A DNA stretch of 64,000 nt from Moheibacter lacus (GTDB lineage Bacteria; Bacteroidota; Bacteroidia; Flavobacteriales; Weeksellaceae). The notes beneath the pieces are model-generated. The model made no database searches. It saw only the letters and a list, made by a program, of their open reading frames with translations, and was not told the origin of the DNA. The DNA lies in the NCBI RefSeq assembly GCF_014042165.1, contig NZ_JACDZE010000001.1:1572595-1636594 (forward strand), written 5' to 3'. Made by a program: the position numbers and the translations under genes. Shown here piece by piece: positions 5,601-48,800 of this stretch (the first letter of the stretch is position 1; every line of letters starts with the position of its first letter).

Positions 5601-6285
5601 CAATACGGATCAGATGTATACCAACTTCAAAGATTTCAAATGGGCCAATTTCAATTTGGATGATGCTTCATTCTCCAATACCGACCGAAATTACACCAAT
5701 ACATACAGAAACATCGCTGTTCGTCTGGCAGATGACTTTACGGAAAGAGGCGATAAAGTAAAAGCCAAAGAAGTGCTGGATAAAGTGATGGAAATGATTC
5801 CGGATCAACCGCGATACGATTATGGTTTGAGCACAGAGCGAATTGCGCAAGCATATAATAAAATTGGTGAAACTAAAAAAGCAGAGGCGTTATTGAAAAC
5901 CGCAAAACAACGTTTGATAGAAAAGATGAATTTTTATGAATCCTTGCCAGATAACATCCGTTATACGGTTTCAGGTGATATGAACGATGCTCGAAGTGAT
6001 TATTCGCTGATGGTTTATGGGCGAGTAAGTGAATTGTTAAGTAAAAAAGACACAATTCAAGCGATGCAATACTTTAAACAAGAATTTAAACCGGTGCGTG
6101 ATAAATTGGTTCAATCTTATCAAACATACAACAAAGACGGCAATGTAGACGTTAGAGAACAAAACAACATCGATGGACAGTTCCGATTTGTGAGCGAATT
6201 TTTAGGAATCGCAGAATTGATCGATACGACCTATGCCAAAAAAGAAACAAACGAATTGTATAACATTTTAACAAACGAAAAATAA
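2647..6285 (+). CDS. DUF2723 family membrane protein (GT117 / TMEM260-like protein O-mannosyltransferase family)
   Basis: A large 1212-residue integral membrane protein. The first 600 residues hold many hydrophobic helices starting at about residue 10, including a conserved early segment SFWDCGEYIVSSAKLGVTHAPG that marks DUF2723. The next part is a long extracytoplasmic domain. The C-terminus has TPR-like helical repeats around 1000-1150. The family is widespread in Bacteroidota, is placed in glycosyltransferase family 117, and is related to human TMEM260. A GT-C-type glycosyl transfer from a lipid-linked sugar to exported proteins is therefore plausible, but the bacterial substrate is inferred. 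A small outer-membrane barrel gene follows 12 nt downstream, probably in the same transcript. Confidence 0.85.
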   Translation: MNIPFKKWNNLIGFALFILASFVYLMTMERKLSFWDCGEYIVSSAKLGVTHAPGAALFQLIGSVWAGLAFGDGSKYALVINSMSAICSALTIMFLFWTITHFVRRMFFVTKQNELVENAFQTSLSKSQALITLGSGLVGAMVFMFSDSFWFSAAEGEVYAMASLFTAILIWLGCKWEEESDEQRGNKWFLLICLTIGLATGVHLMAILAIPAVCYMYYAKNYKLTIKSFLLANLFTAIFLGFVFKYLFKWVMTIFGKTEIYVVNNFGLPFNSGTVVAGILLALVFFLAFKYTKKYNWKLGNTLVLSIAFMIIGFSCWLVIPIRANANPHMNLNDPDTALGMLDYFNREQYGDWPTIYGQTYTANFAADGIAVSPDGNYQTKITGENYVKDNRTEKYIKVSDRKDYVYNDKHIKFFPKMYNNLPDVMENYAAMYGFPEFTINAAFFNDMEDHPEVRAQKRQMAEARFNELLQKKHDGTLKIADLQKNAELLDIQPPTFGQQINYFLDYQLDYMFFRYFMWNFSGKQNDWEGNMQVTKGNWITGIPFFDNARLGDQSKLPAVYKENKGHNVYFMLPLILGLIGFFVQYNRNVTHWWAILSLFLLTSVGIIFYTSVKPFEPRERDYALVSSFYAFSIWVGLGVQGIYILIKKFKKRELTPSVSIVISAFCLAIPLLMGFQNWDDHDRSKREGAYALAYNYLNNLDENSILFVYGDNDTYPLWGLQETELFRDDVKIVNYTLLGSPWNIEQSLRKTYDAPALPSKLQYKDFQLNTNDNIMVVAGNIKSIFGELHSIIKPDAGLSVAEIMSLPADQITQYLVDPGYDPAGIQQLYNSVKPLEQYLVKDSMTAKEAFEFIMDNKNPAKAALADYFGYPVGAVNYLPVDKIIIPVNKANAIKSGIVDAKDADKIVDQITVTLGKRQLYKSELLMISMFAEYNWDRSIYFSGGGVSDPGNIFWLSDYLENNGFSYKLVPIYTRFGEGGKLGRSNTDQMYTNFKDFKWANFNLDDASFSNTDRNYTNTYRNIAVRLADDFTERGDKVKAKEVLDKVMEMIPDQPRYDYGLSTERIAQAYNKIGETKKAEALLKTAKQRLIEKMNFYESLPDNIRYTVSGDMNDARSDYSLMVYGRVSELLSKKDTIQAMQYFKQEFKPVRDKLVQSYQTYNKDGNVDVREQNNIDGQFRFVSEFLGIAELIDTTYAKKETNELYNILTNEK

Positions 6286-6297
6286 ATTTAGAAACAT

Positions 6298-6816
6298 ATG
6301 AAAAAGTTGATTTTCAGTGCTGCACTAGCAGTAATCGGGTTGGTGTCAGTAAATGCGCAGGAAGGTTTAAAAGCAGGTGCGCACATAGGTGTTCCGGTAG
6401 GTGATGCGACCAATTATTTTGGAGTTAATTTTGGAGCTGAAGTTTCTTATCTGTATCCGGTAATGGAGAATTTTCATGTAGGAGGGATAGCCGGAGTTGA
6501 ATTATTTCCGGGAAAAGAAATTACAGGGACAGGAACCAAATTAAAGGGATTGACTTTGGTGCCAATCGCTGCAAGTGCGCAATATGACTTTTTGGAACAA
6601 TTTTTTGGTGCTGTAGATTTGGGATATGCATTTAGTTTAAATAAGGACTATAACGGAGGTTTTTACTTTCAACCAAAAGGAGGTTGGCAAAACGAATATT
6701 TCCAAGCATTTGCTTTTGTGAAAGTCATTTCATCTGATGTAGATGTTGCAAGTCCGGTTTATGGAAATTATTCTGCCATCACAACTGTTGGTGTCGGAGC
6801 AGCCTATAAATTTTAA
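6298..6816 (+). CDS. Outer-membrane beta-barrel protein, small
   Basis: A 172-residue exported protein. Residues 1-20 form a Sec signal peptide (MKKLIFSAALAVIGLVSVNAQ, cut after the Ala-Gln region). The mature part has about eight amphipathic strands with Gly-rich turns (GAHIGVPVG, GLTLVPIAASAQYDF) and ends with the aromatic YKF, so it should fold as a small OmpW/OmpX-sized barrel. No specific ligand is apparent. It follows the DUF2723 gene by 12 nt and is closed by a strong terminator. Confidence 0.75.
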   Translation: MKKLIFSAALAVIGLVSVNAQEGLKAGAHIGVPVGDATNYFGVNFGAEVSYLYPVMENFHVGGIAGVELFPGKEITGTGTKLKGLTLVPIAASAQYDFLEQFFGAVDLGYAFSLNKDYNGGFYFQPKGGWQNEYFQAFAFVKVISSDVDVASPVYGNYSAITTVGVGAAYKF

Positions 6817-6838
6817 GTAAAAGATTTATTTACCACAT

Positions 6839-6870
6839 AAAAATACCCGCCAATTCCGGTGGGTATTTTT
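6839..6870 (+). terminator. Intrinsic terminator after the small barrel gene
   Basis: A 13-bp stem (6839-6851 against 6858-6870, one G:T wobble) ends in a run of five T. The mirrored A-run means it may also act on the minus strand for the deoxynucleoside kinase gene. Confidence 0.85.
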
Positions 6871-6919
6871 ATTTCTTTAATTTTTCTACTTTTTACTTTC
6901 TACCAACTACCATTTTCTC

Positions 6920-7534
6920 TTAAAACAACCCGTTGATTTCCGCATCGACTTTGTCATAAATAAAACTCAAATCTTCCGGATTATTTACAAAATCCAAATT
7001 GTCCACATCGATGATGAGCAGTTTTCCCTCGTCGTAAGTTTTCACCCATTCTTCGTACTTATCGTTCAGACGACTGAGGTATTCGATGCTGATGGAGCTC
7101 TCGTATTCGCGACCTCTGAGTTGAATTTGTTTGACCAACGTTGGAATGGAAGCCCGTAAATAAATCAACAAATCGGGTGCTTGCACAAAGGAATTCATCA
7201 AATCAAAAACCGTCAGATAATTTTCATAATCTCTGGTCATCAAAAGACCCATATCATGTAAATTGCTCGCAAAAATATGCGCATCTTCATGGATGGTTCT
7301 ATCCTGAATGATGTTCTCACCGCTTTCTCTGATTTCTTTGATTTGGTTGAAACGACTTCCTAGAAAATAGATTTGAAGATTAAACGCCCATTTTTCCATG
7401 TCGTTGTAAAAATCGTCGAGGTATGGGTTTTCATCAACACTCTCAAACTGAGGTTTCCAACGAAAGTTTTTGGCCAATAATTGTGTCAATGTTGTTTTTC
7501 CGGCTCCTATGTTTCCAGCGATGGCGATGTGCAT
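6920..7534 (-). CDS. Deoxynucleoside kinase
   Basis: Phosphorylates deoxynucleosides for the salvage of DNA precursors. The 204-residue protein has a P-loop GNIGAGKTT at residues 7-15, a DRT motif at 78-80 (the ERS/DRS position that binds phosphate), and an Arg-rich lid RGREYESS near 144-151, which together define the dNK/dGK family. Family members differ in preference for deoxyadenosine, deoxyguanosine or thymidine, and this cannot be read from the sequence. Its start lies 2 nt after the stop of the upstream gene, so the pair is co-transcribed and probably translationally coupled. Confidence 0.9.
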   Translation of the reverse strand: MHIAIAGNIGAGKTTLTQLLAKNFRWKPQFESVDENPYLDDFYNDMEKWAFNLQIYFLGSRFNQIKEIRESGENIIQDRTIHEDAHIFASNLHDMGLLMTRDYENYLTVFDLMNSFVQAPDLLIYLRASIPTLVKQIQLRGREYESSISIEYLSRLNDKYEEWVKTYDEGKLLIIDVDNLDFVNNPEDLSFIYDKVDAEINGLF

Positions 7535-7536
7535 TT

Positions 7537-8337
7537 TTAATGGTTTTTTTGGAATTCGTAAAGATAAACAACCCGACCTTTTAAGGCAAACAGAAAACGA
7601 TTATTTACCGAAAAATAATCAAAAGAGCGATGGATAGAGATTTCTTTGGTTTCTTTTGATTTTAAATCCAATTGAAATAATTTCCCTTTATCTGAGTAAT
7701 AAAAGACATCATTCTGAAGATAAATTTGATCAAATTTTTGAAAGGGAATCACCGACTCCAAATTGGCATATTCGTCAAAACGAAGAATTTTTGTGAACCC
7801 AATCAGGTAAATTTTATTTTGATGATAAATCAAATCCGAATAAAATTCGTCACCCGTTTTTTCTGTCAAAATCACTGATTGCCTTATGGCCTTTTTATCT
7901 CTGTAATTCCAAAGCACCAAACGCTGCAAAACCGGATCGTAGCCCCAGAGAAAATTATTGTCCACAAGCGCAGAAAGCGTAGGAGTGAAGTTGGTTTCGA
8001 TCGGGAATTCGATCAAATCCTGTACTTGATTCAATTGATTGTCCAGCACCAAAAGATTGAACAAAGCTGATTTTAACGTGATTTGTAAAATATTTTGGGT
8101 GTTGAGGTTTTCTAGGACGGTTTGATTGGAATAGATTTTTCGTTTTCGGGTTTGGTAATCGATTTTATTGAGTTCGGTAAAATTTCGGATATAATACACA
8201 TTGTGAAAATCATCCGCTTCAAAATCGGTAATGGAATCACGGCTTTCGATGGAAATAGAGTCCACGAGTTGGAAGCGCTGCCCAAAACCGAGCGAAACAG
8301 CGAGGAAAATCAACCCGATGCCAATTGCTATTTTCAT
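7537..8337 (-). CDS. Secreted protein of unknown function, beta-propeller-like
   Basis: The frame is open from 8427, but the ATG at 8337 begins a clear signal peptide (MKIAIGIGLIFLAVSLGFGQ) and the extra 30 residues upstream look non-coding, so I set the start there (266 residues). After the signal the protein is a series of short beta strands with repeated aromatic-rich units (DNNFLWGYDPVLQRLVLWNY; QNKIYLIGFTKILRFD), which suggests a propeller fold. No catalytic motif is visible. It lies directly upstream of, and 2 nt from, the deoxynucleoside kinase, with no obvious functional link. Function unknown. Confidence 0.6.
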   Translation of the reverse strand: MKIAIGIGLIFLAVSLGFGQRFQLVDSISIESRDSITDFEADDFHNVYYIRNFTELNKIDYQTRKRKIYSNQTVLENLNTQNILQITLKSALFNLLVLDNQLNQVQDLIEFPIETNFTPTLSALVDNNFLWGYDPVLQRLVLWNYRDKKAIRQSVILTEKTGDEFYSDLIYHQNKIYLIGFTKILRFDEYANLESVIPFQKFDQIYLQNDVFYYSDKGKLFQLDLKSKETKEISIHRSFDYFSVNNRFLFALKGRVVYLYEFQKNH

Positions 8338-8475
8338 TTGGTCTAAAGTAAAAAAAAATATTGGGAATCCCGTTGAAAATCGTCTGTGGGGCAAAAGATA
8401 TTTTGGGTATAAAAACCCGTAGTACATTTTGGTTTAATGTGGTAATTCTTTGAATTTATGCGAATGAATAGAAAG

Positions 8476-8592
8476 AACTCCGTAGGAGTTAAATGTTTGT
8501 AGTCTTGGAAGTTGTTCAAGGTTTTATAGAAATGGAATTGATTTATTTTGTCATGATTTTTGATGTGCAACAATCAAAAATCATGACAAAAT
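8476..8592. repeat. REP-like intergenic element A
   Basis: Three folded parts in order: a palindrome AACTCCGTAGGAGTT (8476-8490), a CTTGG..CAAGG imperfect hairpin (about 8503-8521), and a perfect 20-bp inverted repeat (8545-8564 against 8573-8592) with an 8-nt loop. The same architecture recurs at 49852-49975, where 24 consecutive bases of the last arm and its 3' flank are identical. Such dispersed hairpin units are typical of REP sequences mobilised by RAYT transposases. No transposase gene is in the window. Confidence 0.65.
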
Positions 8593-8622
8593 TCTATTTG
8601 AATTATCATTACTGCTTATAAA

Positions 8623-9426
8623 TTAAATCTTTTGATTCTTTTCTATTGTCGTTTTCAGCGCCTGAATTTCCCTGTACAATACCGAGAAATCGGAAACAGG
8701 TTCGGGAAAATTTTGGCTGGAAAAGGAATGAAACTCCCAAATTTCCAGTACGTCTGTTGCCAATACGGTGTAAGGCTGATAAGTTGGGTTTAAGGATTTT
8801 AGTGTCAAAGTTTTATCTTTTTGGAATGTCAGCAGTTTGAAAACAAAGTCCTGTTGGTCTTTTAAAATGATGATGCAAGGTGTATTTGGTTTGATGTTAT
8901 GCCAATTCTCTACATATTTTCCTGTTACATCACTGTTTTCGGGAATAGGAAGCATAGAGTCTCCTACCGTTGGGAAAATCCTATATGTTCCTTGTTTGGG
9001 TACGTTCGGCAAAGAATATTTCGGTAATTTGGCAATGTATTCAGGATCATTATAACCAGACCGATAGCCTGCTTTGGTTTTGATAGGAACATACTCGACG
9101 TTCTCATTGTTTTCTTTGTCAACTGTAATGGCCAAGACCCTTAAATTTCCGCCTTTTATATAGACATCGTTTCCGGCTTCGAGTTCGCGAAGCTTTAATT
9201 CACCCAATTTGGATAAATCAATTTTGATCAAAGTATCCAAACTCATTTTAAAGTGAGCGGAAAATTTTAACAGATCCTCCACAGAGGGAGATTTGGTTTG
9301 TCCCGTTTCGATGCAATTCAGTTTGGAGCGCGTCATGGAAAGGCTTTCCGCTAAATTTTCTTGGGTGCGTTTTTGTCGGACACGGAGAAATTTAACATTG
9401 TTTCCAAAAAAAATATGCGTTTTCAT
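8623..9426 (-). CDS. LexA-like transcriptional repressor (XRE HTH + S24 peptidase domain)
   Basis: A 267-residue regulator. Residues 8-65 are an XRE-type helix-turn-helix (TQENLAESLSMTRSKLNCIE). Residues 110-235 are an S24/LexA-type autopeptidase domain. The three self-cleavage elements are present: a scissile-type Ala119-Gly120, Ser157 in GDSM, and Lys197 in FVFK. Their spacing (37 and 40 residues) is close to that of E. coli LexA (34 and 37). A short coiled tail follows. The gene is divergent from the dinB-dnaE2-nuclease operon across 70 bp that hold a palindromic operator, so it most likely represses that operon and itself and is inactivated on DNA damage. A plain S24 phage-type repressor is the alternative. 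Confidence 0.85.
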   Translation of the reverse strand: MKTHIFFGNNVKFLRVRQKRTQENLAESLSMTRSKLNCIETGQTKSPSVEDLLKFSAHFKMSLDTLIKIDLSKLGELKLRELEAGNDVYIKGGNLRVLAITVDKENNENVEYVPIKTKAGYRSGYNDPEYIAKLPKYSLPNVPKQGTYRIFPTVGDSMLPIPENSDVTGKYVENWHNIKPNTPCIIILKDQQDFVFKLLTFQKDKTLTLKSLNPTYQPYTVLATDVLEIWEFHSFSSQNFPEPVSDFSVLYREIQALKTTIEKNQKI

Positions 9427-9447
9427 ATGATCTAATTGTTTAAATTG

Positions 9448-9477
9448 TAGTCGTCATATTGACTATAATTTAGTCAA
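9448..9477. promoter_or_regulatory. Palindromic operator in the repressor/dinB divergent promoter
   Basis: A perfect 19-bp palindrome TTGACTA-TAATT-TAGTCAA spans 9459-9477, and a third half-site TAGTC lies at 9448-9452. The palindrome overlaps a -7-like TAATTTAG (9466-9473) for dinB, with TTG 18 nt upstream at 9445-9447. A bound repressor would therefore block the promoter. Binding by the adjacent LexA-like protein is inferred. Confidence 0.6.
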
Positions 9478-9496
9478 AAATACTAAAAATATTGAT

Positions 9497-10642
9497 ATGG
9501 AGCGGCACATCGTGCATTGTGATTTAGATTCTTTTTTTGTAAGTGTGGAGCGTTTGCAGAACAGCAGCCTGATAGGCAAGCCGGTTTTGATCGGTGGGAA
9601 AAGCGATAGGGCGGTGGTAGCTTCCTGCAGTTATGAAGCGCGGAAGTTTGGGGTGCACTCGGCCATGCCCATGAAACTGGCATTGCGTCTATGTCCGGAA
9701 GCCATCGTGGTGCAAGGCGATCACGATTCCTATTCTTATCATTCCAACATCGTGACGGAAATCATCAAAGAAAATGTGCCCTTATTTGAAAAAGCGAGCA
9801 TCGACGAACATTATTTTGATTTGACGGGAATGGATCGGTTTTTTGGTTGTTGGAGCTGGACGCGTGAACTCCGTCAGCGCATCATCACAGAAACGGGTTT
9901 GCCCATTTCCTTTGGTTTGTCGGCCAATAAAACCACTTCCAAAATTGCGACAGGACAAGCCAAGCCTTGTGGCGAACTCAAAGTAGACTGCGGAACGGAA
10001 AAGCATTTTCTGGCACCGCTTTCCATCCGTAAAATTCCCATGGTCGGCGATAAAACCTACACCCAACTGCGCAACATGGGCATTTCGAAATGTTTGACTT
10101 TGCAGCAAATGGAAGTCTTTACGCTGCGCAGGGTTCTAGGCGAGAACGGCATCAGCATTTGGAAAAAGGCAAACGGCCTGGACGAGAGTCCGGTGGTCTC
10201 GTTTCAACAACAAAAAAGCATGAGCAAAGAAACGACCTATCAAAACGACACCATCGACATGGAAGTCTTGCGGAAAACATTGGCCAAAATGGTGAACGAA
10301 TTGGCCTTTGATCTCAGGAAAGAGCAAAAGTTGACCGGTTGTATCACGCTGAAAATCCGGTACAGCAATTTTGATACGCATACCAAACAAATCCGCATTC
10401 CTTATACCAATTCGGACAGGGTGATCGATGAAAAAATAAAAGAATTATTCACCAAACTCTACAGTCGGCGTATGCTCATACGGCTCATAGGGGTGAAATT
10501 CAGCCATTTGATCAGCGGAAATTACCAAACCGATTTGTTCAATGACCGGGAAAAAGACCTGCAACTCGCTTTGGCGATGGACAGGATTAGGCTTAGACAT
10601 GGTTTTAAATCGGTAACCCGAGGCGGTTTGTTCATCCAGTAA
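9497..10642 (+). CDS. dinB: Y-family DNA polymerase (DinB / Pol IV-like)
   Basis: A 381-residue translesion polymerase. The palm carries the catalytic acids Asp9 (HCDLDSFF), Asp103 and Glu104 (SIDEH; the usual residue after DE is Ala). Thumb and little-finger domains follow. QTDLF at residues 344-348 fits the beta-clamp-binding consensus QLxLF. It is the first gene of a three-gene operon: dnaE2 starts 10 nt after its stop. The distance from the operator suggests damage induction. Its base composition is clearly GC-richer than the genes downstream of 22 kb (32 of 60 bases at 9541-9600). It could equally be classed as ImuB-like by context, but the catalytic residues are intact, unlike ImuB. Confidence 0.93.
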   Translation: MERHIVHCDLDSFFVSVERLQNSSLIGKPVLIGGKSDRAVVASCSYEARKFGVHSAMPMKLALRLCPEAIVVQGDHDSYSYHSNIVTEIIKENVPLFEKASIDEHYFDLTGMDRFFGCWSWTRELRQRIITETGLPISFGLSANKTTSKIATGQAKPCGELKVDCGTEKHFLAPLSIRKIPMVGDKTYTQLRNMGISKCLTLQQMEVFTLRRVLGENGISIWKKANGLDESPVVSFQQQKSMSKETTYQNDTIDMEVLRKTLAKMVNELAFDLRKEQKLTGCITLKIRYSNFDTHTKQIRIPYTNSDRVIDEKIKELFTKLYSRRMLIRLIGVKFSHLISGNYQTDLFNDREKDLQLALAMDRIRLRHGFKSVTRGGLFIQ

Positions 10643-10651
10643 TTCTCAGAA

Positions 10652-13585
10652 ATGTTATTGAATCTGCACAGTTATTATAGTTTGCGGCATGGTACGCTCA
10701 GCTTGGAAAGTCTCATCGGGGAAATGCAGAAGAGAGGCTATGAAACAGCGGTTTTGACCGATGTGAACAACAGTTCAGGGGTATTGGATTTTATCAAGTT
10801 GGGGCAGGAAGCGGGAATAAATCCGCTGGCGGGAATGGAATTCAGAAACGGTGATCGATTGCTGTACATCGGCATTGCCCGGAATGAATTGGGTTTCAAA
10901 GAACTCAACGAATGGATGACCTTGCATAACCGGGAGAAACGATTGTTGCCGGAAATCGCACCTGAATTCGCCCATGTTTTTCTAATCTATCCCTATGGTA
11001 GTCAAAAATTGAATCAATTACGGGATAATGAATTCATCGGAATTCGACCTTCTGAATTGAATAAAATCCGCCTGGAACCGGCTGTGAATTTTGAGCGTTA
11101 TGTCGTGCTGGCTCCTGTTACATTTGGGCAGGAAGATTATCAATTGCACCGTCAGCTCAGAGCCATTGATCATAATATTTTGATTTCCCAATTGGAGCCT
11201 TTTCAAATGGCCGGAGCGGATGAATTCTTTTTAAATAAATCTGAATTAATGGAAATCTATCGCTCTTTTCCTCAATTGATCCAAAACACAAACCAACTGT
11301 TGTCGGCCTGCCGATTTGATTTCGATTTTAAAACCGTAAAAAACAAAAAGCACTTTACAGAAAGTCGTTACGAAGACAAAGAATTGCTTTACCAATATGC
11401 GTTTGAAGGATTTAAAAACCGATACGACGAAAAGAATGAAATCGCCAAAGCGCGGATTTTAAAAGAATTGGAAGTCATCGATAACCTGAATTTTTCGAGT
11501 TATTTTTTGATTACCGATGACATCTGTCGTTATGCGCGCAGCCGGAAGTTTGAGTATGTAGGCAGAGGAAGCGGCGCAAATAGCGTGGTAGCTTATTGTC
11601 TGGGGATTACAGATGTTTGCCCGATCGAGTTGGATTTGTATTTTGAACGTTTTTTAAACCCCAAACGCAAATCGCCTCCTGACTTTGATGTCGATTTTTC
11701 ATGGAAAGAACGGGATGAAATCTATGCGTATATTTTCAATCGATATGGAACAGATCATGTAGCGTTAATGGGAACAATGAGTACGTTTCGTTCGCGAAGC
11801 ATCTTACGGGAATTGGGGAAAATTTATGGTTTGCCCAAAGCTGAAATTGACCGACTCGTACGCGAACCGGAAAATAGACTCAATCAAAATGAAGTCACCC
11901 AGATGATTTTAAATGTTTACAACCAAATGACCGATTTTCCTAACCAGCGCTCCATCCACGCCAGTGGTGTTTTGATTTCAGAATTGCCGCTTACACAATA
12001 TTGTGCACTGGATTTTCCACCCAAAGGTTTGGCGACGGCTCAGATCGATATGTACACAGCCGAAGACATCGGATTTGAAAAAATTGATATCCTCAGTCAA
12101 CGGGGAATCGGGCATATCAAAGATTGCAAAGAAATCATCAAGTACAACAGGGGCGAGGAAATCAGCACAGAAAATCCGCATCGGTTTTTTGAAGATAAAA
12201 AAATCGCCGCCCAACTCAAATCGGCTAACACGATTGGTTGTTTCTATATCGAAAGCCCTGCGATGCGTCAACTTTTAACCAAACTCAAATGCGATACTTA
12301 TCTGACGCTGGTAGCAGCCAGCTCCATCATCCGTCCCGGCGTGTCTTCTTCAGGGATGATGGGCGCCTACATCGAGCGGCATCATGATCCGTCCAAAGTG
12401 GTGTATCCGCATCCGGTTTTTGAACAACAATTAAAAGAAACCTATGGTGTGATGGTGTATCAGGAAGATGTGATGAAAATAGGGCATCACTATGGCGGAT
12501 TGGATTTGGCAGATGCCGATGTTTTGCGGCGAATGATGAGCGGGAAATACCGGCATGTCGGTCATTTGGTCGAAATCAAAGACAAATTTTTTGACCATTG
12601 CAAAGCGATGAACTATCCGGAGGCTTCGTCCAAAGAGGTTTGGCGACAGATGGAGAGTTTTGCGGGTTATTCTTTTAACAAAGCGCACAGCGCCAGTTTC
12701 GCAGTAGAGAGTTACCAAAGTTTGTTTCTGAAAACCTATTTCCCAAAAGAATTTATGGTAGCGGTTTTGAACAATTACGGCGGATTTTACAGCCGCAAAG
12801 TCTATGTCAACGAAGCGCGAAAGTCGGGAGCGGAGATTTGTTTGCCATGTGTCAACAAAAGTATGTATGAAACGGTAATTTATGGAGAAGAAATCTATTT
12901 AGGGTTTGATGGAATTTTGAATTTCGAAGCCCAATTGGGGCATAGAATCGTAGCGGAAAGAACGCGAAATGGTGCGTATTTGGGCATTGAGAATTTCGTG
13001 CTGCGAACCGGCGCTGGATTGGAACAAATCGTCATATTGATCCGATGTAATGCTTTTCGGTTTTTGGGAATTGGTAAAAAAGAGTTGTTATGGGAAGCGC
13101 ATTTTTTATTGAGCGAACATGTTGAAAAACAGCATAATTTTTCACTTTTTGAAACAGATTCTGAAAAACCTGTCTTACCTTCATTGGAATATTCGGTATT
13201 GGAAGATATTTACGATGAAATCGAATTGATCGGTTTTCCGGTTTCGGCTTCTTTGTTTGATTTGGCCAAATCAAAATTCAGAGGCGATGTGATGGTTGCT
13301 GATCTAAATCAATTTGAAGGAAAAATCATACGGATGGTGGGCGATTTTGTGACCGATAAACTCGTGCGAACGCGAATTGGAATCATGAAGTTTGGGACAT
13401 TTTTTGATGAACAAGGTGTGTTTTTTGACACCATACATTTCCCGCATTCTCTGGCCAAATATCCGCTCAGAGGTTCGGGGTTGTATTTGCTGGAAGGTAG
13501 AGTGGTTGTGGATTTTGGATGTCCTTCACTGGAAATAATAAGATGCGGTAAAATGCCGTTACAAAAAGACCCAAGAAGTGAGTAA
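10652..13585 (+). CDS. dnaE2: Second DNA polymerase III alpha subunit, DnaE2-like (error-prone)
   Basis: A C-family polymerase of 977 residues, shorter than replicative DnaE (about 1160). Catalytic Asp344, Asp346 (PDFDVDF) and Asp479 (KIDILSQRG) are present, with the VGRGSGANSVVAYCLGIT nucleotide-site motif before them. The KxDxLSQRG form resembles DnaE2 rather than the replicative DnaE1 (KFDFLGL). The N-terminal PHP domain is degenerate: the usual HxH metal motif reads Asn4-Leu-His6, so PHP nuclease activity is doubtful. A C-terminal OB-like region is at about 880-977. Its position between dinB and an exonuclease implies joint translesion synthesis with DinB. The replicative dnaE must be elsewhere. 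Confidence 0.88.
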   Translation: MLLNLHSYYSLRHGTLSLESLIGEMQKRGYETAVLTDVNNSSGVLDFIKLGQEAGINPLAGMEFRNGDRLLYIGIARNELGFKELNEWMTLHNREKRLLPEIAPEFAHVFLIYPYGSQKLNQLRDNEFIGIRPSELNKIRLEPAVNFERYVVLAPVTFGQEDYQLHRQLRAIDHNILISQLEPFQMAGADEFFLNKSELMEIYRSFPQLIQNTNQLLSACRFDFDFKTVKNKKHFTESRYEDKELLYQYAFEGFKNRYDEKNEIAKARILKELEVIDNLNFSSYFLITDDICRYARSRKFEYVGRGSGANSVVAYCLGITDVCPIELDLYFERFLNPKRKSPPDFDVDFSWKERDEIYAYIFNRYGTDHVALMGTMSTFRSRSILRELGKIYGLPKAEIDRLVREPENRLNQNEVTQMILNVYNQMTDFPNQRSIHASGVLISELPLTQYCALDFPPKGLATAQIDMYTAEDIGFEKIDILSQRGIGHIKDCKEIIKYNRGEEISTENPHRFFEDKKIAAQLKSANTIGCFYIESPAMRQLLTKLKCDTYLTLVAASSIIRPGVSSSGMMGAYIERHHDPSKVVYPHPVFEQQLKETYGVMVYQEDVMKIGHHYGGLDLADADVLRRMMSGKYRHVGHLVEIKDKFFDHCKAMNYPEASSKEVWRQMESFAGYSFNKAHSASFAVESYQSLFLKTYFPKEFMVAVLNNYGGFYSRKVYVNEARKSGAEICLPCVNKSMYETVIYGEEIYLGFDGILNFEAQLGHRIVAERTRNGAYLGIENFVLRTGAGLEQIVILIRCNAFRFLGIGKKELLWEAHFLLSEHVEKQHNFSLFETDSEKPVLPSLEYSVLEDIYDEIELIGFPVSASLFDLAKSKFRGDVMVADLNQFEGKIIRMVGDFVTDKLVRTRIGIMKFGTFFDEQGVFFDTIHFPHSLAKYPLRGSGLYLLEGRVVVDFGCPSLEIIRCGKMPLQKDPRSE

Positions 13586-14984
13586 AAAGAAAAATAATAG
13601 AGAATATGCCATCGTGGACATCGAAACCACAGGCGGATATGCGTCCGGAAGTAAGATTACGGAAGTGGCCATCATCGTGTTTGACGGCGAAAAAATCACA
13701 GACCGTTTTGAAACACTTGTCAATCCTGAGAGGGATATTCCATTGCCCATTTTTGCCTTGACCGGAATCAACAATGAAATGGTGGCGCATGCGCCGAAAT
13801 TTGAGATGATAGCGGAAAAGGTATTTGGAATGCTTGAGAATCGGGTTTTTGTAGCGCACAATGTGAATTTTGATTATTCCTTTATCAAACAACAGCTCAG
13901 CGCGGAAGGTTATCCTTTTTCTGCTCCCAAATTATGTACAGTACGCATGAGCCGTAAAATCAAACCTGGATTGTATTCTTATAGTTTGGGGAATTTATGT
14001 CAAAGTTTGGAAATTCCTATTCAAAATCGGCATAGGGCGGGAGGCGATGCAGAAGCTACGGCGATTTTATTTTCAAAATTGATGGAATGGGACGAAGAAG
14101 GCATCATCCCGGAAATGCTGAAACGCAATTCAAAAGAACAACAATTGCCGCCCAATTTGCAAAAATCGGATTTTGAGAATTTGCCCAATTGTCCTGGCGT
14201 GTATTATTTTCGAAACAAAGCCGGAAAAGTGGTGTATGTCGGAAAAGCTATCAACATCAAAAAGCGGGTTTCATCCCATTTTACAGGACATAATCCGAAT
14301 CCCCAGCGGCAAAATTTCCTGAAAGACATTTACCATATTTCCTATGAAATCTGTGGAACCGAACTCATGGCTTTTTTGCTGGAATGCGTCGAAATCAAAA
14401 AACTCTACCCGATTTATAACCGTGCGCTGAAACGATTTGAACCTAAATTTGGATTGTTTCAATACAAAGATATTTCGGGTTATCAACGATTGGCTGTTGG
14501 GAAACTCAGTAAAAATCAGACAAGTATCCGGGTTTTTCATCAACTTTTTGAAGGAATTAATGTGTTATTGAATTTGATTGAACAACATGATTTGGATATA
14601 CGACTTTGTTATCTGGGTCAGGAAACCGATCGATTTCAACCCAATGAAATTCCCTATCCGCCTGCTGAAGCATACAATCTCAAAGTGGAAAAAGCGCTGG
14701 AAGAACTCGATTCCAAACAACCTAGTTTTGCCATTTTGGGCAAAGGAAGAAATGAAGAAGAAAAAAGTTGTATTTGGGTGGAAAATGGGAGGTTTTATGC
14801 GATGGGCTATTTGGATAAAGCCATTGACTTTTCCGATTTTGAAGCGGTAAAAGAAAGTTTGGAACGATTTCCGGACAATTATTATATGAATCAATTGATC
14901 CATTCCTTTGCTGAAAAAAATCCGCAGAGCGTTTATGTGATAGATGATGAATTTAAATTGGAAACAATTCAAAAATCATTTTGA
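13578..14984 (+). CDS. DEDDh exonuclease - GIY-YIG endonuclease fusion
   Basis: A 468-residue fusion. Residues 8-170 are a DnaQ-like 3'-5' exonuclease with Asp14/Glu16 (DIETTG), Asp99 (HNVNFD), and His152/Asp157 (HRAGGD, the DEDDh signature). Residues 200-285 are a GIY-YIG nuclease (GVYYF at 207-211, YVG at 220-222, Arg230) as in UvrC/Cho. The last 180 residues match nothing I recognise. The UvrC RNase H-like half and helix-hairpin-helix are absent. It begins with GTG and overlaps dnaE2 by 8 nt, so it is translationally coupled to it. It could proofread for, or trim lesions before, the error-prone polymerases. Confidence 0.88.
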   Translation: MSKKKNNREYAIVDIETTGGYASGSKITEVAIIVFDGEKITDRFETLVNPERDIPLPIFALTGINNEMVAHAPKFEMIAEKVFGMLENRVFVAHNVNFDYSFIKQQLSAEGYPFSAPKLCTVRMSRKIKPGLYSYSLGNLCQSLEIPIQNRHRAGGDAEATAILFSKLMEWDEEGIIPEMLKRNSKEQQLPPNLQKSDFENLPNCPGVYYFRNKAGKVVYVGKAINIKKRVSSHFTGHNPNPQRQNFLKDIYHISYEICGTELMAFLLECVEIKKLYPIYNRALKRFEPKFGLFQYKDISGYQRLAVGKLSKNQTSIRVFHQLFEGINVLLNLIEQHDLDIRLCYLGQETDRFQPNEIPYPPAEAYNLKVEKALEELDSKQPSFAILGKGRNEEEKSCIWVENGRFYAMGYLDKAIDFSDFEAVKESLERFPDNYYMNQLIHSFAEKNPQSVYVIDDEFKLETIQKSF

Positions 14985-14998
14985 AATTATAAATGAGC

Positions 14999-15060
14999 AG
15001 TAGGCGTTGCAAACGCAAATAGATCAGACAGGTTGCAAATGCGCGCCAGGCAAAGACAAA
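14999..15060. repeat. Short repeat-rich spacer
   Basis: Holds a hairpin GCGTT-GCA-AACGC (about 15014-15026) and a second related GTTGCAAATGCGC stretch at about 15042-15054, so two TTGCAAA-type units stand side by side. No reading frame of substance. They may be decayed REP units. Function unknown. Confidence 0.35.
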
Positions 15061-15088
15061 AAAAAGGATAGTATAAACTATCCTTTTT
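15061..15088. terminator. Bidirectional intrinsic terminator between the mutagenesis operon and tRNA-Arg
   Basis: A perfect 12-bp stem (15061-15072 against 15077-15088) has a 4-nt loop, with an A-run on one side and a T-run on the other. It closes the dinB-dnaE2-nuclease operon and the tRNA-Arg transcript. Confidence 0.85.
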
Positions 15089-15135
15089 GTGACCACGGAG
15101 GCCCCGATACTTCGGGGGAACCCCCAACTTTTCTT
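15083..15135 (-). repeat. Partial duplicate of the tRNA-Arg 3' end with an inserted hairpin
   Basis: Bases 15083-15101 repeat 15133-15151 (the tRNA 3' flank, discriminator and acceptor strand) with one mismatch at an offset of 50 nt. The T-arm copy that follows is disrupted by CCCCGA-TACT-TCGGGG and then resumes as AACCCCC-like sequence. It cannot fold as a tRNA. It looks like the scar of an attachment-site or REP insertion. Confidence 0.6.
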
Positions 15136-15139
15136 TTTG

Positions 15140-15213
15140 TGACCGCGGAGGGATTCGAACCCCCAACCCTCAGAGCCGAAATCTGATATTCTATCCAGTT
15201 GAACTACGCAGCC
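15140..15213 (-). tRNA. tRNA-Arg (anticodon TCG)
   Basis: 74 nt that fold as a full cloverleaf: acceptor GGCTGCG/CGCGGTC with two G:T pairs, anticodon stem TCAGA/TCTGA with loop TTTCGGC (anticodon TCG, reading CGA), and T-loop TTCGAAT. The discriminator is A73, and CCA is not encoded. It lies 30 nt after the M49-like lipoprotein gene on the same strand. Confidence 0.92.
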
Positions 15214-15243
15214 ATTGGGAGTGCAAAAGTAATTAAATCTAAT

Positions 15244-16887
15244 TTACAATCCCAAAACTTTTACACCTTGTTCAAAAATGATGTCGTCCGGAATCCCTGC
15301 GGCTTTCAATTTGTCCAAATCTTTTTGCAATTCTTTGGAAATATGTCCTTTTTGTTCGGTTAATTTTTTTACACCTTCATAATCACCATTTCCTTGAAGT
15401 GTTAAAATCAATTCGGATAATCCGTTCATCGCAGCTTCCATCTTTGGGAAATCCACGATGTATTTTCCTTCTTTGGTTCGTTTAAAAGCCCCTCTTTCTT
15501 TAAAATAATTGAAACAAATCATATTGGCCGATCCGTGAGCGCTTTCTCCAAATCGTACCGAACGGAAAATTCCGGCGAGAAATGTCACCATAAAATCTTC
15601 TTTTTGTCCTTCCAATTCGCCTTTTTCAAGCAATTGGTTGACCATGTACAATCCCAAAATATCGGCTTTCCCTTCTTCCAAATGGGATTGTTGTTCTTTC
15701 AAGGCTTCTCGGACGGTTCCTTTGTCGTTGATCGTGTTTTTAATCCCCAATCCATGCGCAACTTCGTGAAACATCACATTGGCAAAAAACGCATCAAATT
15801 TTACGTGTTGGCGTTGGGAATCGTCGATCAGGACATCGGCAATCGGTACCATGATTTTGTCAAATTTGGCACGCATGGCGTTTTTCAATTGTAATCGACG
15901 TGTTCCTTTTTCCAATTGTACACGTTCGTCGTTGGGTAAATTGATTGCGATGGTTTTTCCTCCGGCGTTGCAATCTCCTGCATAATACACCACATCATAG
16001 GCGTTCAAGTCGGAATCGGTTCCGGGAGATTCGGTTTTGTACTTGTCCGGCACGGGTAAATTTCGTTGCAATTCAGGCAAGAATTTGGCATATTTTTCCA
16101 GTTTTTTGGACCATTCCATGTCTTTTACCAAGACATAAGCTTCGTGTGCTGCTTTATATCCAAATAATTGATCTTCATAGGTTTCGATCGGTCCGACGAC
16201 AAAATCCAATCGGTTGGTTTTCATGTTCATCCATGCGATATCGCTTTCGAAATACTTATCGGTTTCCAACGCTGTTGCTCTCGTTTCCAAATAGATTTTC
16301 AGTCCTTCATCATCCGCAAAAGTGGCGGCTTTGCGTAAAAGTCCGGCAGCATTGGCGATTTGGTCTTTGAATTGGACATGGTAGGGAACGGTATAGAGTC
16401 CGCCGTCTTCATTTCTTCTGACGAAAGTGTATTGGCTTTTTCCTTCCGGTAAATTGGCATTTTCAAATTCTTCAACGGTCATGTCCAAAGGATAGAAATT
16501 GGCGCCGAGCGGTTTCGGTCCAAATCCTTTGACGAAAGATTGCATATTGTCCAAACGGTCCCAAGGGCCATAATTGATTTCTACATAATTTCGAGTGTTT
16601 CCAGCAACTTTAGAAAGCAATTCTTCTTTGTCACCATAGGCTTCGTACCAGAACAATTCGTCCATAATTTGAGAAGCTTCGATCATGATGACGAGCATCG
16701 CTTTTTCTTTGTCGCTCAAATGACTCAAATCGGTTTCCAGTCGAACGGTCGCATAGGATTTTAAAGAATCGAGTTGTACGATTTCTTGTTTTTCACCATC
16801 AACGATATTGGGTGCTGTTGGTTCTTTTTTACAATTTATCAGAACAAGACATAGGGTTAGGAAACTGATTCCAATTATAGATTTCAT
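15244..16887 (-). CDS. Zinc metallopeptidase lipoprotein, dipeptidyl-peptidase III (M49)-like
   Basis: 547 residues. The ATG at 16887 gives a lipoprotein signal (MKSIIGISFLTLCLVLINC, lipobox Cys19). The frame open to 16968 adds 27 residues that look like a separate leader peptide. The zinc site is His374-Glu-Val-Ala-His378 followed about 50 residues later by EEGKADI, which supplies the third ligand, as in M49 dipeptidyl peptidases III. The pentapeptide HEXXH replaces the six-residue HEXXGH usual for that family. It probably trims di- or oligopeptides in the periplasm or at the outer membrane. The length is shorter than classical DPP III (about 700 residues). Confidence 0.75.
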   Translation of the reverse strand: MKSIIGISFLTLCLVLINCKKEPTAPNIVDGEKQEIVQLDSLKSYATVRLETDLSHLSDKEKAMLVIMIEASQIMDELFWYEAYGDKEELLSKVAGNTRNYVEINYGPWDRLDNMQSFVKGFGPKPLGANFYPLDMTVEEFENANLPEGKSQYTFVRRNEDGGLYTVPYHVQFKDQIANAAGLLRKAATFADDEGLKIYLETRATALETDKYFESDIAWMNMKTNRLDFVVGPIETYEDQLFGYKAAHEAYVLVKDMEWSKKLEKYAKFLPELQRNLPVPDKYKTESPGTDSDLNAYDVVYYAGDCNAGGKTIAINLPNDERVQLEKGTRRLQLKNAMRAKFDKIMVPIADVLIDDSQRQHVKFDAFFANVMFHEVAHGLGIKNTINDKGTVREALKEQQSHLEEGKADILGLYMVNQLLEKGELEGQKEDFMVTFLAGIFRSVRFGESAHGSANMICFNYFKERGAFKRTKEGKYIVDFPKMEAAMNGLSELILTLQGNGDYEGVKKLTEQKGHISKELQKDLDKLKAAGIPDDIIFEQGVKVLGL

Positions 16888-16968
16888 ATTTGCGATGCGT
16901 TTAATGCTCAAAAATAGGAAAAAAAGAAGCCGAATCCTAATGATTCGACTCCTTAAATTAACACACAT
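16888..16968 (-). other. Arg/Ile-rich leader reading frame overlapping a terminator-like hairpin
   Basis: An ATG at 16968 opens a frame MCVNLRSRIIRIRLLFF.. that is in phase with, and runs into, the lipoprotein gene. The codons for RSRIIRIR form the hairpin at 16926-16952 and the following Leu/Phe codons are its T-run. This is the layout of a transcription-attenuation leader. Whether it is translated separately, or is just an over-long open frame, is not known. Confidence 0.35.
16926..16952 (-). terminator. Intrinsic terminator or attenuator upstream of the M49-like gene
   Basis: An 11-bp stem (16926-16936 against 16942-16952, two wobble pairs) has a 5-nt loop. On the minus strand it is followed by a run of T, about 40 nt ahead of the lipoprotein start codon. 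Confidence 0.6.
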
Positions 16969-17048
16969 GAGGACAAAATTTCACAGCGCAAATTTGAGGA
17001 GGAAATTTAAGTTAAAGGTTAAGTCAATGCTAAATAATGGGAAACAAA

Positions 17049-45884: not shown

Positions 45885-48800
45885 TTAAAATTCAACTTTT
45901 ATACTAGCTCCTATTTCACGAATTGTAGGGTATGCACCTGATTGATATCCTCTAAAGTTACCTGCACTCAATCCAGCTTCTGGGTCAGAGTAAGGAACGT
46001 TTTTGTGGATGATCCAAAGGTTTCTTCCGATTGCAGAAATGGTGAACTTTTGGATAAAAGTATTTTTTATTAAACTTTCTGGAAGATCGTAAGATAGGGT
46101 TACATTTCTCAATTTCACAAAAGAGGCATCATAAACGTGAGCTGCTCTTGGTGCACCACCGTAACCAAATGGATTGGTATCGTCAGAAGCTCCTACGCGG
46201 ATGTCATTTGTAGAGCCATCTTCTTTTACACCAGGAAGGATAACTCCACCACCATTTTCAAGACTATTTCTGATTGGATTTCCTAAATCATTTAGACCAG
46301 CGGAGAAATCATAAATACCTGTTTGGTAACCGTACCATGTATCCAATGAGAAAACATCTCCACCTTGTTGTACGTCAATCAAAAAGCTCAAGGTTAAATT
46401 TTTATAAGAAAGTCTATTTTTCAAACCTCCTGTCCATTCAGGATTGGTGTCTCCGATGATTTGACCTGCTTCAGTTAGGTAGAATCCGTCTTCACCTACT
46501 ACTTTATTTCCGTTTTCATCATAAACGTAGTTGGTTCCAACTAGTACACCCAGTGGTTGATTTAACCAAGCACCGTATTCAACTCCACCTTGGAAAGATG
46601 TCAATGGGTAATACTCACTATCCCCTGCAAGTTGTGTTACTTCACTTGTATTTTTGGCAAAGTTCGCAATGATGTCCCATGTGAAACTGTTGGATCTTAT
46701 TGGAGTTAGGGTTAAACTTGCTTCAATACCTTTGTTTCTCACACTTCCAACATTTGCCCAAGCACCTGTAGCGCCTATTGCACCTGTTGTGACTATTTGG
46801 GTCAACAAATCCTCTGTTTCATTGTCATAATAGGAAACATCAAAACTCACACGATTTTTGAACATGGCCATTTCTAAACCTAATTCATATCCACCAGTAG
46901 TTTCAGGTAATAAATTTGGATTGTTGGAAACAGCTGGATTTGATCCAGAAGAAATTGAACCAAAGGATGTGTTCAAGTTGTAAATGTTATAAACATTTAA
47001 TGGATCTAAATCATTGGCAACTTTAGCGTAATTTCCTCTTAATTTACCGAAGTTTAACCAATCACCATCTATCAGTTCAGAGAACACAAAACTTCCGGAA
47101 GCAGACCAGTATGAATAACGATTGTCATTTTTAGGTAATGCAGATGATCTGTCGGTTCTTATCGATCCCTCAACAAAGAAAGTTCTGTAAAAACCTACAC
47201 TTGCTCTTGCAAACATACCATCAACCATCTTTCTCCATCGATATTGTTGCATATCACTGGCCCCAAGTGGATTGATAGAATTGTCCAAAGTATATAGTCC
47301 TGGAACTTGTAAACCACCATTTGTTGTGCCGATAAATCCATTTCTATCAGTTACTCTTAAGTTCCATCCGGCATTTGCATCCAAATTAATGTTATCTGTA
47401 AGGTCTTTGTTGATATTTAAGATCAAATCATAGTTGTTTTCACTTACAGTTTGTTTGAAAAGAGAATATTCTCCAACATATGCGGTAGCTCCTCCAGCTG
47501 AACCTACAGCAATACGCTCTTCGCGGGTTTCATCATAGTTGTCAAATGCAAAACGCCCTAGCAAACTGATCCAGTCATTGAATTCATAATTAACTCCAAC
47601 ATTACCAAAATATCTGTTTCGATCATCAGTTTGGTAATTATTTGCTCTGTTCCAAAAATAGTTGTCAGTATAAATTGGTCTTAAATCAGTAGCAGATCTA
47701 GGATTCCAAGTGATGTTCTGGCCAGTTAGTAAAAATGCAGCTTCTTGCTGTCTCATGTCTACGTTGGTTTGCCACCACTGACGGAATGATTGCATCGGGT
47801 TATTTCCTTCGTAGCCTGTCCCAACTCTACCTTTTCCAGAGTTGTTTACATAGGAAATGTTTGCACTCACTGTTAACTCATCTGTAAAAGAGTAATCTCC
47901 ACTAAAGTCCAAAGAGTTTCTTAATAATTTGCTGTTGACCAAGTTTCCATTTTGCGTAAAGTTGGTAAAGCCTAATCGAAATGCACCTTTGTCATTCCCT
48001 CCACTAAAAGCAACGGAGTTAGTGTATGTTTCAGAAATATTCCAAATATAGTTTGGATCTTCTTGACCTGCCACCCAAGGAGAGGCTTGTCTGTAAGTTG
48101 GCAATTGTGGATAAATGGAATTCCATTGATAAATCATCAAATTTGGATCAAAAGCAGCTCCATAAGAAGCATCTTCTGTAAATGGTGTCGTTAAATCTAG
48201 TACACCATCTCCATTTACATCAGAAAGCCCAAAGTATCCATTGTCACTTGCGTAATAAGGACCATATCCAGCCCCATATTGTTTCTGGTATTTTGGTAAA
48301 GTTTCTTTATCAGCTGCACCAACAAAAACACTTGAGTTAACCTCAACTCCTATGCCCTTGTTTCTTTTACCTGATTTTGTCGTAATCATCACGACACCAT
48401 TAGCACCGCGAGAGCCATATAAGGCAGTTGCTGCAGCGCCTTTCAATACATTGACACTTTCAATGTCATTTGGATTGATGTCAGATGCAGCATTGGAATA
48501 ATCATAACCTCCACGTCCTCTTTGTTGATCTACAGGGTTATAAGTGTTGTTGTTGATCGGTGTACCATCAACTACAATCAATGCCTGGTTGTTTCCTGTA
48601 ATGGATTTGTAACCTCTGACGATGATATTGGTTGATCCACCCATCGTTCCAGATGATGTGATGTCCAATCCTGCAATTTCTCCAGATAATGCATCTGCAA
48701 AATTCGAAACTGGTGTTTTGGAAATTTCTTCCCCACTGATTTCCTGCGTCGCATAACCCAAAGATTTTTTGTCTCTTGTAATACCTAAAGCCGTTACTAC

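Follow-up and report, generated by a model that had tools for sequence, protein, structure and literature searches.

The analysed DNA (the window) is a stretch of 64,000 nt from Moheibacter lacus (NZ_JACDZE010000001.1, positions 1,572,595-1,636,594, forward strand), and all coordinates given here are counted within it. It contains a block of four genes in which a repressor gene is divergent from a compact operon encoding a DinB-type Y-family polymerase, a DnaE2-type C-family polymerase and a two-domain nuclease. An earlier note on this DNA had described an SOS-like mutagenesis cassette at 8623-14984, and the four genes do sit there. The block carries the assembly's only Y-family match, its only repressor match of this kind and its only C-family polymerase besides DnaE1. 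Its features are as follows.

8623..9426, minus strand: S24/helix-turn-helix (HTH) repressor of the non-canonical LexA type, 267 aa (Pfam, residue checks, fold search)
9436..9454, centre 9445, strand not applicable: candidate operator O2, degenerate, TTGTTTA-AATTG-TAGTCGT, 23 bp from O1
9459..9477, centre 9468, strand not applicable: candidate operator O1, perfect palindrome, TTGACTA-TAATT-TAGTCAA (pattern search)
9497..10642, plus strand: DinB-type Y-family polymerase, 381 aa (Pfam IMS and IMS_C, residue check)
10532..10627, plus strand: RecA-N-terminus-like tail of DinB, residues 346-377 (alignment to the genome's own RecA)
10652..13585, plus strand: DnaE2-type C-family polymerase, 977 aa (Pfam DNA_pol3_alpha, finger, HHH_6 and PHP)
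13578..14984, plus strand: DEDDh 3'-5' exonuclease joined to a UvrC/Cho-type GIY-YIG nuclease, 468 aa, GTG start (Pfam RNase_T and GIY-YIG)

The DnaE2 and nuclease genes overlap by 8 nt (13578-13585), as claimed earlier, and the gap between the two polymerase genes measures 9 nt (10643-10651) rather than 10. DinB was correctly described as catalytically intact: the acidic catalytic residues D9, D103 and E104 are in place. At residue 344 it carries QTDLF, which resembles a clamp motif. The tail (residues 346-377) aligns with the N-terminus of the genome's own RecA at a score of 38, whereas shuffled tails average 19.9 and only 6 of 2000 reach that score; the protein ends four residues after this stretch. 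IMS matched this one protein in the assembly, and no ImuB or second Y-family protein was found (ImuA was not searched for). Identity with ImuB was rejected for the cassette protein itself, as its active site is intact and no ImuB-C domain follows the RecA-like tail.

The presence of a second C-family polymerase was likewise borne out by Pfam domains, with DNA_pol3_alpha matching two proteins in the genome, DnaE2 in the operon and a separate DnaE1 elsewhere. The catalytic aspartates of DnaE2 are D344 and D346 (in PDFDVDF) and D479, which align with their counterparts in a bacterial PolIII alpha chain of known structure (3e0d). The PHP domain starts LNLHSYYS and lacks the HxH start expected of a canonical PHP; its site looks degenerate. 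DnaE2 polymerases have been described as a group without the canonical PHP pattern (PMC3919608). As a DnaE2-type polymerase encoded in this operon, the protein is a candidate for the B group among DnaE2A, B and X.

The repressor was also recognized correctly as LexA/S24-like; it has a CI-type HTH and an S24 domain. Pfam reports HTH_3 and Peptidase_S24, the latter at 22.9 bits, just below the cut-off of 23.3; we retain the S24 assignment because fold matches back it. The best matches of the predicted model (mean predicted local distance difference test score 76, predicted template modelling score 0.48) in the PDB are LexA and the lambda and 186 repressors; the scores are modest, with a best E of 5.6e-06 and a TM of 0.39 relative to the query. 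The protein keeps A119-G120, the predicted self-cleavage bond, and the S157/K197 dyad, and G120, S157 and K197 are invariant across 21 aligned repressor rows. A canonical LexA was rejected: phmmer searches against the PDB (E up to 1) returned HTH proteins and weak Wzc-type kinases and no LexA. Judging from the predicted model, kinship with LexA is visible at the fold level only. Three features of non-canonical LexA proteins were found, namely a CI-like HTH with S24, the Ala-Gly bond with the Ser-Lys dyad, and a dyad-N5-dyad palindrome in the repressor's own promoter. A defence system was also considered and rejected, as PADLOC gave HTH-type matches for the repressor, DEDDh and PDC-S48 matches for the exonuclease part and none for the polymerases.

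The divergent promoter is 70 bp long and holds O1, which is the sole TTGACTA-N5-TAGTCAA site with no mismatch in the 2.77-Mb assembly. Two sites with one mismatch lie within open frames of 464 and 537 aa. With at most two mismatches the assembly has ten sites, none of them near recA. Palindromes were sought in 25 chosen promoters of cassettes with their own repressor, with repressor starts aligned on the HTH and position unconstrained. The best palindrome fell 41-42 nt from the aligned start in 19 of the 25, and perfect 7/7 palindromes occurred in nine (shuffled mean 0.39, largest 3). Half-sites were compared in 24 of these promoters, with the site taken at 41 or 42 nt: TG is present in 48/48 and the first T in 41/48, while the inner bases vary. 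The resulting operator grammar is (T)TG-NNNN-N5-NNNN-CA(A), in which the inner bases co-vary with the recognition helix of the repressor. They are ACTA in the window, in Parapedobacter tibetensis (Sphingobacteriaceae; locus L018) and in a congener, all with the helix RSKLNCIE; ACAC with RSKLNALE in L056 and L073; and GTCT with RVKLKAIE in L068 and L070, with L065 having one half GTTC. In L024 they are CTAC. A partial Mantel test of inner bases against helix, given C-terminal distance, yielded r 0.33 (p 0.0008, n=22 promoters). The P. tibetensis promoter is identical to that of the window in operator core and spacer. In addition, a second site is indicated by a self-match peak of 0.66 at a shift of 23 bp, versus 0.18-0.37 at other shifts of 14-31 (22 promoters).

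Neither published half-site, CTAA or GGA, was found at this position: the half-site is ACTA, the 70-bp promoter as read contains no GGA-N5-TCC, and the sole CTAA-N5-TTAG of the window lies far away, at 46283. Membership in the two named groups is thereby excluded, but not membership in the repressor family, because diverged half-sites are reported within the family (PMC8565304). Two further candidates were rejected. A genome-wide regulon was not supported, as a loose pattern gave 418 forward versus 1422 reversed-control matches, with the known site not among the matches listed, and the strict search gave one perfect site. The region upstream of recA contains a long inverted repeat, which on visual inspection was taken for a hairpin rather than an operator.

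Named genomes were scanned with the window DnaE2 as seed; the loci of the best 80 of 453 relatives were used, a sample biased to close relatives. For the repressor, 63 loci could be scored (DinB present and at least 1 kb upstream), of which 21 have a divergent repressor of the window type (at least 44% identity, our own cut), eight a more distant one and 34 none. The site CTAA-N5-TTAG occurs within 250 bp before dinB in none of the 21, 27 of the 34 repressor-less cassettes and two of the eight; shuffled upstream regions carry it in 0.46/63 on average, at most three. The contrast between own-repressor and repressor-less cassettes has a Fisher p of 1.8e-9, with rows that are related, and a tree of 48 of these cassettes needs at least six state changes. 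Sphingobacterium detergens has both states, with its own repressor at L048 and L075 and with CTAA-N5-TTAG and no repressor at L030. We infer two regulatory states of one module, own repressor versus CTAA-N5-TTAG. Several loci can also coexist in one genome: Sphingobacterium sp. HMA12 has two DnaE2 loci (L034, L046) and S. detergens the three just named. Five Dyadobacter loci (L065, L068, L070, L072, L079) gave no DinB match, and in them the repressor is divergent from DnaE2 itself. A protein starting MCYHISN comes next in L065 and L070, and this start may point to an SOS-associated peptidase.

The surroundings of the block bear on its origin. Three flanking features are relevant.

15139..15213, minus strand: tRNA-Arg (tcg) adjoining the inserted block, 3' end towards the cassette and separated by 154 nt from the stop codon of the nuclease gene
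7537..8427, minus strand: left neighbour gene, no Pfam match; its homologue adjoins tRNA-Arg and M49 in two congeners
15244..16968, minus strand: right neighbour, M49-type peptidase (Pfam), beyond the tRNA

In two congeners (G005, L194, 81% complete; G001, L196, 99% complete) the homologue of the left neighbour lies beside the M49 gene, with tRNA-Arg (tcg) between them and no cassette there; no DnaE2 was found elsewhere in either genome. In a third (G002, L195) tRNA-Arg beside M49 is followed by another gene, and different genes occupy that side in G003 and G004 within the stretch examined. G003 does carry the cassette, but in other surroundings (L087). The window's DnaE2 shares 75% identity with that of P. 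tibetensis (977 columns) versus 71% with that of the congener (best segment); the corresponding values for DnaE1 (770 aa) are 67% versus 77%. In a quick tree of DnaE2, the window, P. tibetensis and the congener form a clade with a Shimodaira-Hasegawa-like approximate likelihood ratio support of 98, the order inside it not being resolved. This clade sits in a mainly Sphingobacteriaceae part of the tree, and 22 of the 29 other rows from the window's family fall in a separate clade. On the basis of these comparisons, the block is apparently an insertion beside tRNA-Arg that was horizontally acquired.

At the DNA level, window positions 6001-17000 gave no blastn match to L018 or L087 at 1e-20. Carriage on plasmids was rejected as a source: DnaE2 relatives occur on six of 72,556 plasmid records, are 32-56% identical and include no close source (phages and viral contigs were not searched). 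Two of these relatives have dinB annotated under the match, at NZ_CP055155.1 34949-37885 (Adhaeribacter swui) and NC_018742.1 44660-47596 (Emticicia oligotrophica). Separately, Chryseobacterium angstadtii and C. oranimense (L029 and L032, both 1-20934) have 20.9 kb in common, 99.98% identical, and this shared stretch surrounds a DinB-DnaE2 cassette whose repressor is of the distant type. Nearby are genes that on visual inspection resemble those for arsenic resistance, transposase and VgrG.

The nuclease combines exonuclease and GIY-YIG domains, as the earlier note had read it. The active-site residues D14, E16, D99, H152 and D157 of the exonuclease and G207, Y209, Y220, G222, R230, E269 and N281 of the GIY-YIG domain are invariant in seven aligned cassette nucleases. 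A DEDDh domain followed by a UvrC/Cho GIY-YIG domain with conserved residues is the arrangement of Cho+Exo proteins. The nearest NCBIfam model, PRK07883, scores 250 bits against a cut-off of 495, and its alignment ends at residue 288; the C-terminal region (about 291-468), where Cho+Exo proteins would have a C4 element plus a Cho-CTD or UvrB-binding domain, matched neither Pfam nor NCBIfam models (E up to 1). Model confidence is low at 183-260, and the fold-match list is filled by the exonuclease domain. Relatives occur in other arrangements. In L070, L081 and L082 an exonuclease/GIY-YIG relative lies beside the repressor, on its strand. Three Sphingobacterium metagenome-assembled genomes (L059-L061, about 11981-12781) have a stand-alone GIY-YIG protein after DnaE2 instead of the fusion; the best NCBIfam match of that in L059 is excinuclease Cho, below cut-off.

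The nuclease-bearing form is a rare, scattered add-on. For this count, 67 named loci were scored in which the end of DnaE2 is complete and followed by 1.4 kb or more of sequence, and the nuclease lies directly downstream of DnaE2 in six (L018, L023, L024, L026, L051, L084). Among these, P. tibetensis (L018) carries the same four genes. P. tibetensis and Sphingobacterium faecium are both culturable species that bear the four-gene form and their own repressor. On the DnaE2 tree, the seven bearers, window included, require seven changes, with truncated loci counted as lacking the nuclease. In the window's own family, DnaE2 was matched (1e-100) in 146 of 246 sampled genomes and the nuclease (1e-60) in 25. 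Four genomes are on both lists (the window's, G019, G040, G056), and the nuclease has different neighbours in the other three. The four-part form was thus found in one of 146 DnaE2-bearing genomes of the family at thresholds that a nuclease match weaker than 1e-60 would escape. Likewise, 28 family loci (L098-L125, about 1.5 kb beyond DnaE2) gave no nuclease match at 1e-10. The expectation of a conserved gene order was consequently upheld in part: a repressor of either type is divergent from DinB-DnaE2 in 29/63 loci, and the exact four-part form is rare.

We interpret the block, with a probability of about 0.75, as a horizontally acquired, self-regulated mutagenesis cassette of the SOS type: a Bacteroidota DnaE2B-PolY(-RecA) operon with its own non-canonical LexA and a private operator, in a rarer, nuclease-bearing form. 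The directly observed basis consists of gene order, intact residues, operator anatomy and co-variation, and insertion into the locus. By analogy with tested relatives, the cassette is very probably under DNA-damage control. A repressor dimer would bind O1, and perhaps O2, and silence both its own gene and the operon; on damage, the RecA filament would trigger self-cleavage at A119-G120 and release the operon. A role as a mutasome is probable. Following published models, DinB would be recruited through its RecA-like tail and clamp motif and would bypass lesions jointly with DnaE2. More tentatively, the nuclease might nick and resect: the GIY-YIG domain would nick near lesions and the DEDDh domain resect 3'-5', leaving gaps or clean 3' ends for both polymerases.

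Several observations weigh against this interpretation. With at most two mismatches allowed, the operator pattern occurs 10 times in the genome, less often than the reversed control (37 times), and 25 of 100 window shuffles contain such a match, whereas the observed site has no mismatch; the pattern is unremarkable within the window alone, and the weight of O1 rests on place and conservation. O2 is weak in the window, with 3/7 pairs matching. The match between helix and inner bases is not strict, as L054 has the helix RSKLNALE with TCAC/ACAC halves, and the co-variation test corrects for relatedness through C-terminal distance only, a region in which some letters of row L087 are masked. The half-site ACTA differs from both published motifs. 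In addition, dyad-adjacent substitutions had no effect in the published gel shifts with two repressors, so the repressor may make no contact with the conserved outer TTG, or this triplet may be a promoter element. As to the import, no integrase was found among the block genes and no flanking attachment (att) repeat, the best copy of the tRNA 3' end at the other block edge matching 14/25 letters. Integration at tRNA sites was rejected as a general rule, with any tRNA present in two of the 80 named loci (L038, L066). Finally, 61 of the 67 related loci are without the nuclease, so the core does not need it.

This last point opens the most serious alternative, a real contender at somewhat less than even odds, in which the functional unit is repressor, DinB and DnaE2. 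The nuclease would then lie next to it by chance, or would be an independent repair enzyme, a Cho-like excision nuclease, that is only co-transcribed. The rarity of the nuclease and its scatter across the DnaE2 tree favour such a reading, as do the related nucleases of L159-L161, which adjoin other genes. It is opposed by the close junction, since the GTG start and the 8-nt overlap recur in P. tibetensis (L018; nuclease at 11930, DnaE2 end at 11937) and in all six nuclease-bearing named loci the two genes either overlap or lie within about 30 nt of each other. The relatives beside the repressor, the stand-alone GIY-YIG proteins after DnaE2, and the membership of a GIY-YIG exonuclease in both published regulons (PMC8565304) also argue against chance. 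By comparison, a role of the nuclease as a DnaE2 subunit for proofreading or trimming, with a structural or inactive GIY-YIG part, is unlikely. The DEDDh domain is nearest to the exonucleases of DinG, PolC and DnaQ, and the PHP start of DnaE2 without HxH, in a group lacking the canonical pattern (PMC3919608), would suit such a subunit; the GIY-YIG residues are nevertheless invariant in all seven nucleases, and most related operons do without the protein.

The switch could also be a phage- or element-type circuit, acquired together with the cassette and responsive to a signal other than damage, a reading that we consider improbable. The HTH does resemble phage-type repressors (the RstR model scores 29.4 bits against a cut-off of 80), and the genome has no other perfect operator and none near recA. 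However, the Ala-Gly bond and Ser-Lys dyad are intact, and tested family members respond to mitomycin C, including a divergent pair of repressor and error-prone polymerase (PMC8565304). We thus retain the damage-inducible cassette as the preferred reading. A broader and more speculative proposal, doubtful as it stands, is that Bacteroidota DinB-DnaE2 cassettes are transferable modules in one of two conditions. They would be either 'private', with their own S24 repressor and a matched operator TTG-NNNN-N5-NNNN-CAA whose NNNN co-evolves with the helix and prevents cross-talk between co-resident modules, or 'adopted', with the repressor lost and the host CTAA-N5-TTAG SOS site in control. In M. 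lacus, one import would then supply the whole of inducible translesion synthesis, with the Cho+Exo nuclease making its own gaps for mutagenic filling. If true, the 24 promoters with their several half-sites would provide natural repressor-operator pairs for reading a LexA-like recognition code, and damage-induced mutability would pass from one species to another as a finished, insulated unit. With the optional nuclease, the idea that a mutasome can create its own substrate would become testable.

ImuA-ImuB-DnaE2 cassettes contain a catalytically dead ImuB with an ImuB-C domain. The earlier note's parallel with them holds insofar as both are repressor-controlled units of a Y-family protein and DnaE2. 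In contrast, the Y-family protein of the window has an intact active site and stops after the RecA-like tail, and no second one was found in the genome. This intact-DinB variant is already published for Bacteroidetes: the pairing of an active PolY with DnaE2 was described in 2019, in operons frequently but not always with lexA (PMC6511836), and DnaE2B-PolY-RecA is the name given in 2026 to one larger group, a putative mutasome (PMC12926913). Like that group (the PolY2 group and the Cellulophaga algicola system; PMC6511836, PMC12926913), the window has an active PolY with a tail like the RecA N-terminus beside DnaE2 and no ImuB-C, and the published operons often include a repressor gene. It differs in the operonic Cho+Exo nuclease, GIY-YIG being unmentioned in the main texts of both papers.

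Bacteroidota were long believed to be without LexA, until a non-canonical LexA of Bacteroidetes (COG2932), with CTAA-N5-TTAG and GGA-N5-TCC groups and damage induction, was described in 2021 (PMC8565304). In E. anophelis, a repressor gene is divergent from an error-prone polymerase, and both are induced by mitomycin C (PMC8565304). The window repressor shares the CI-like HTH, S24 domain, Ala-Gly bond, Ser-Lys dyad, own-promoter dyad-N5-dyad palindrome and adjacency to a translesion polymerase; it differs in its half-site ACTA (TTG-ACTA), a string not in the main text of that paper, and in having one perfect genomic site. Cho+Exo fusions were catalogued in 2006 in a paper that also restates a proposed mechanism, in which the exonuclease starts at the GIY-YIG nick and degrades DNA through the lesion (PMC1564403). 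The window nuclease resembles these Cho+Exo and Cho-like+Exo proteins (PMC1564403; PRK07883, 'DEDD exonuclease domain-containing protein') in joining a DEDDh exonuclease at the N-terminus to a GIY-YIG domain of the UvrC/Cho type, and differs in scoring below the PRK07883 cut-off and in its unmatched C-terminal region. Among the papers listed by full-text literature searches, none was seen to report a GIY-YIG nuclease in a DinB-DnaE2 operon beyond the regulon remark in PMC8565304. The earlier note knew of no description of the exact four-part form, which is rare (6/67); its active PolY-DnaE2 core, repressor family, regulon GIY-YIG exonuclease and Cho+Exo fusion had each been published. The core of the block is hence already known, and the optional nuclease and apparently private switch are less so. 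New here are the operator, the operonic Cho+Exo nuclease and the evidence for a transferable unit.

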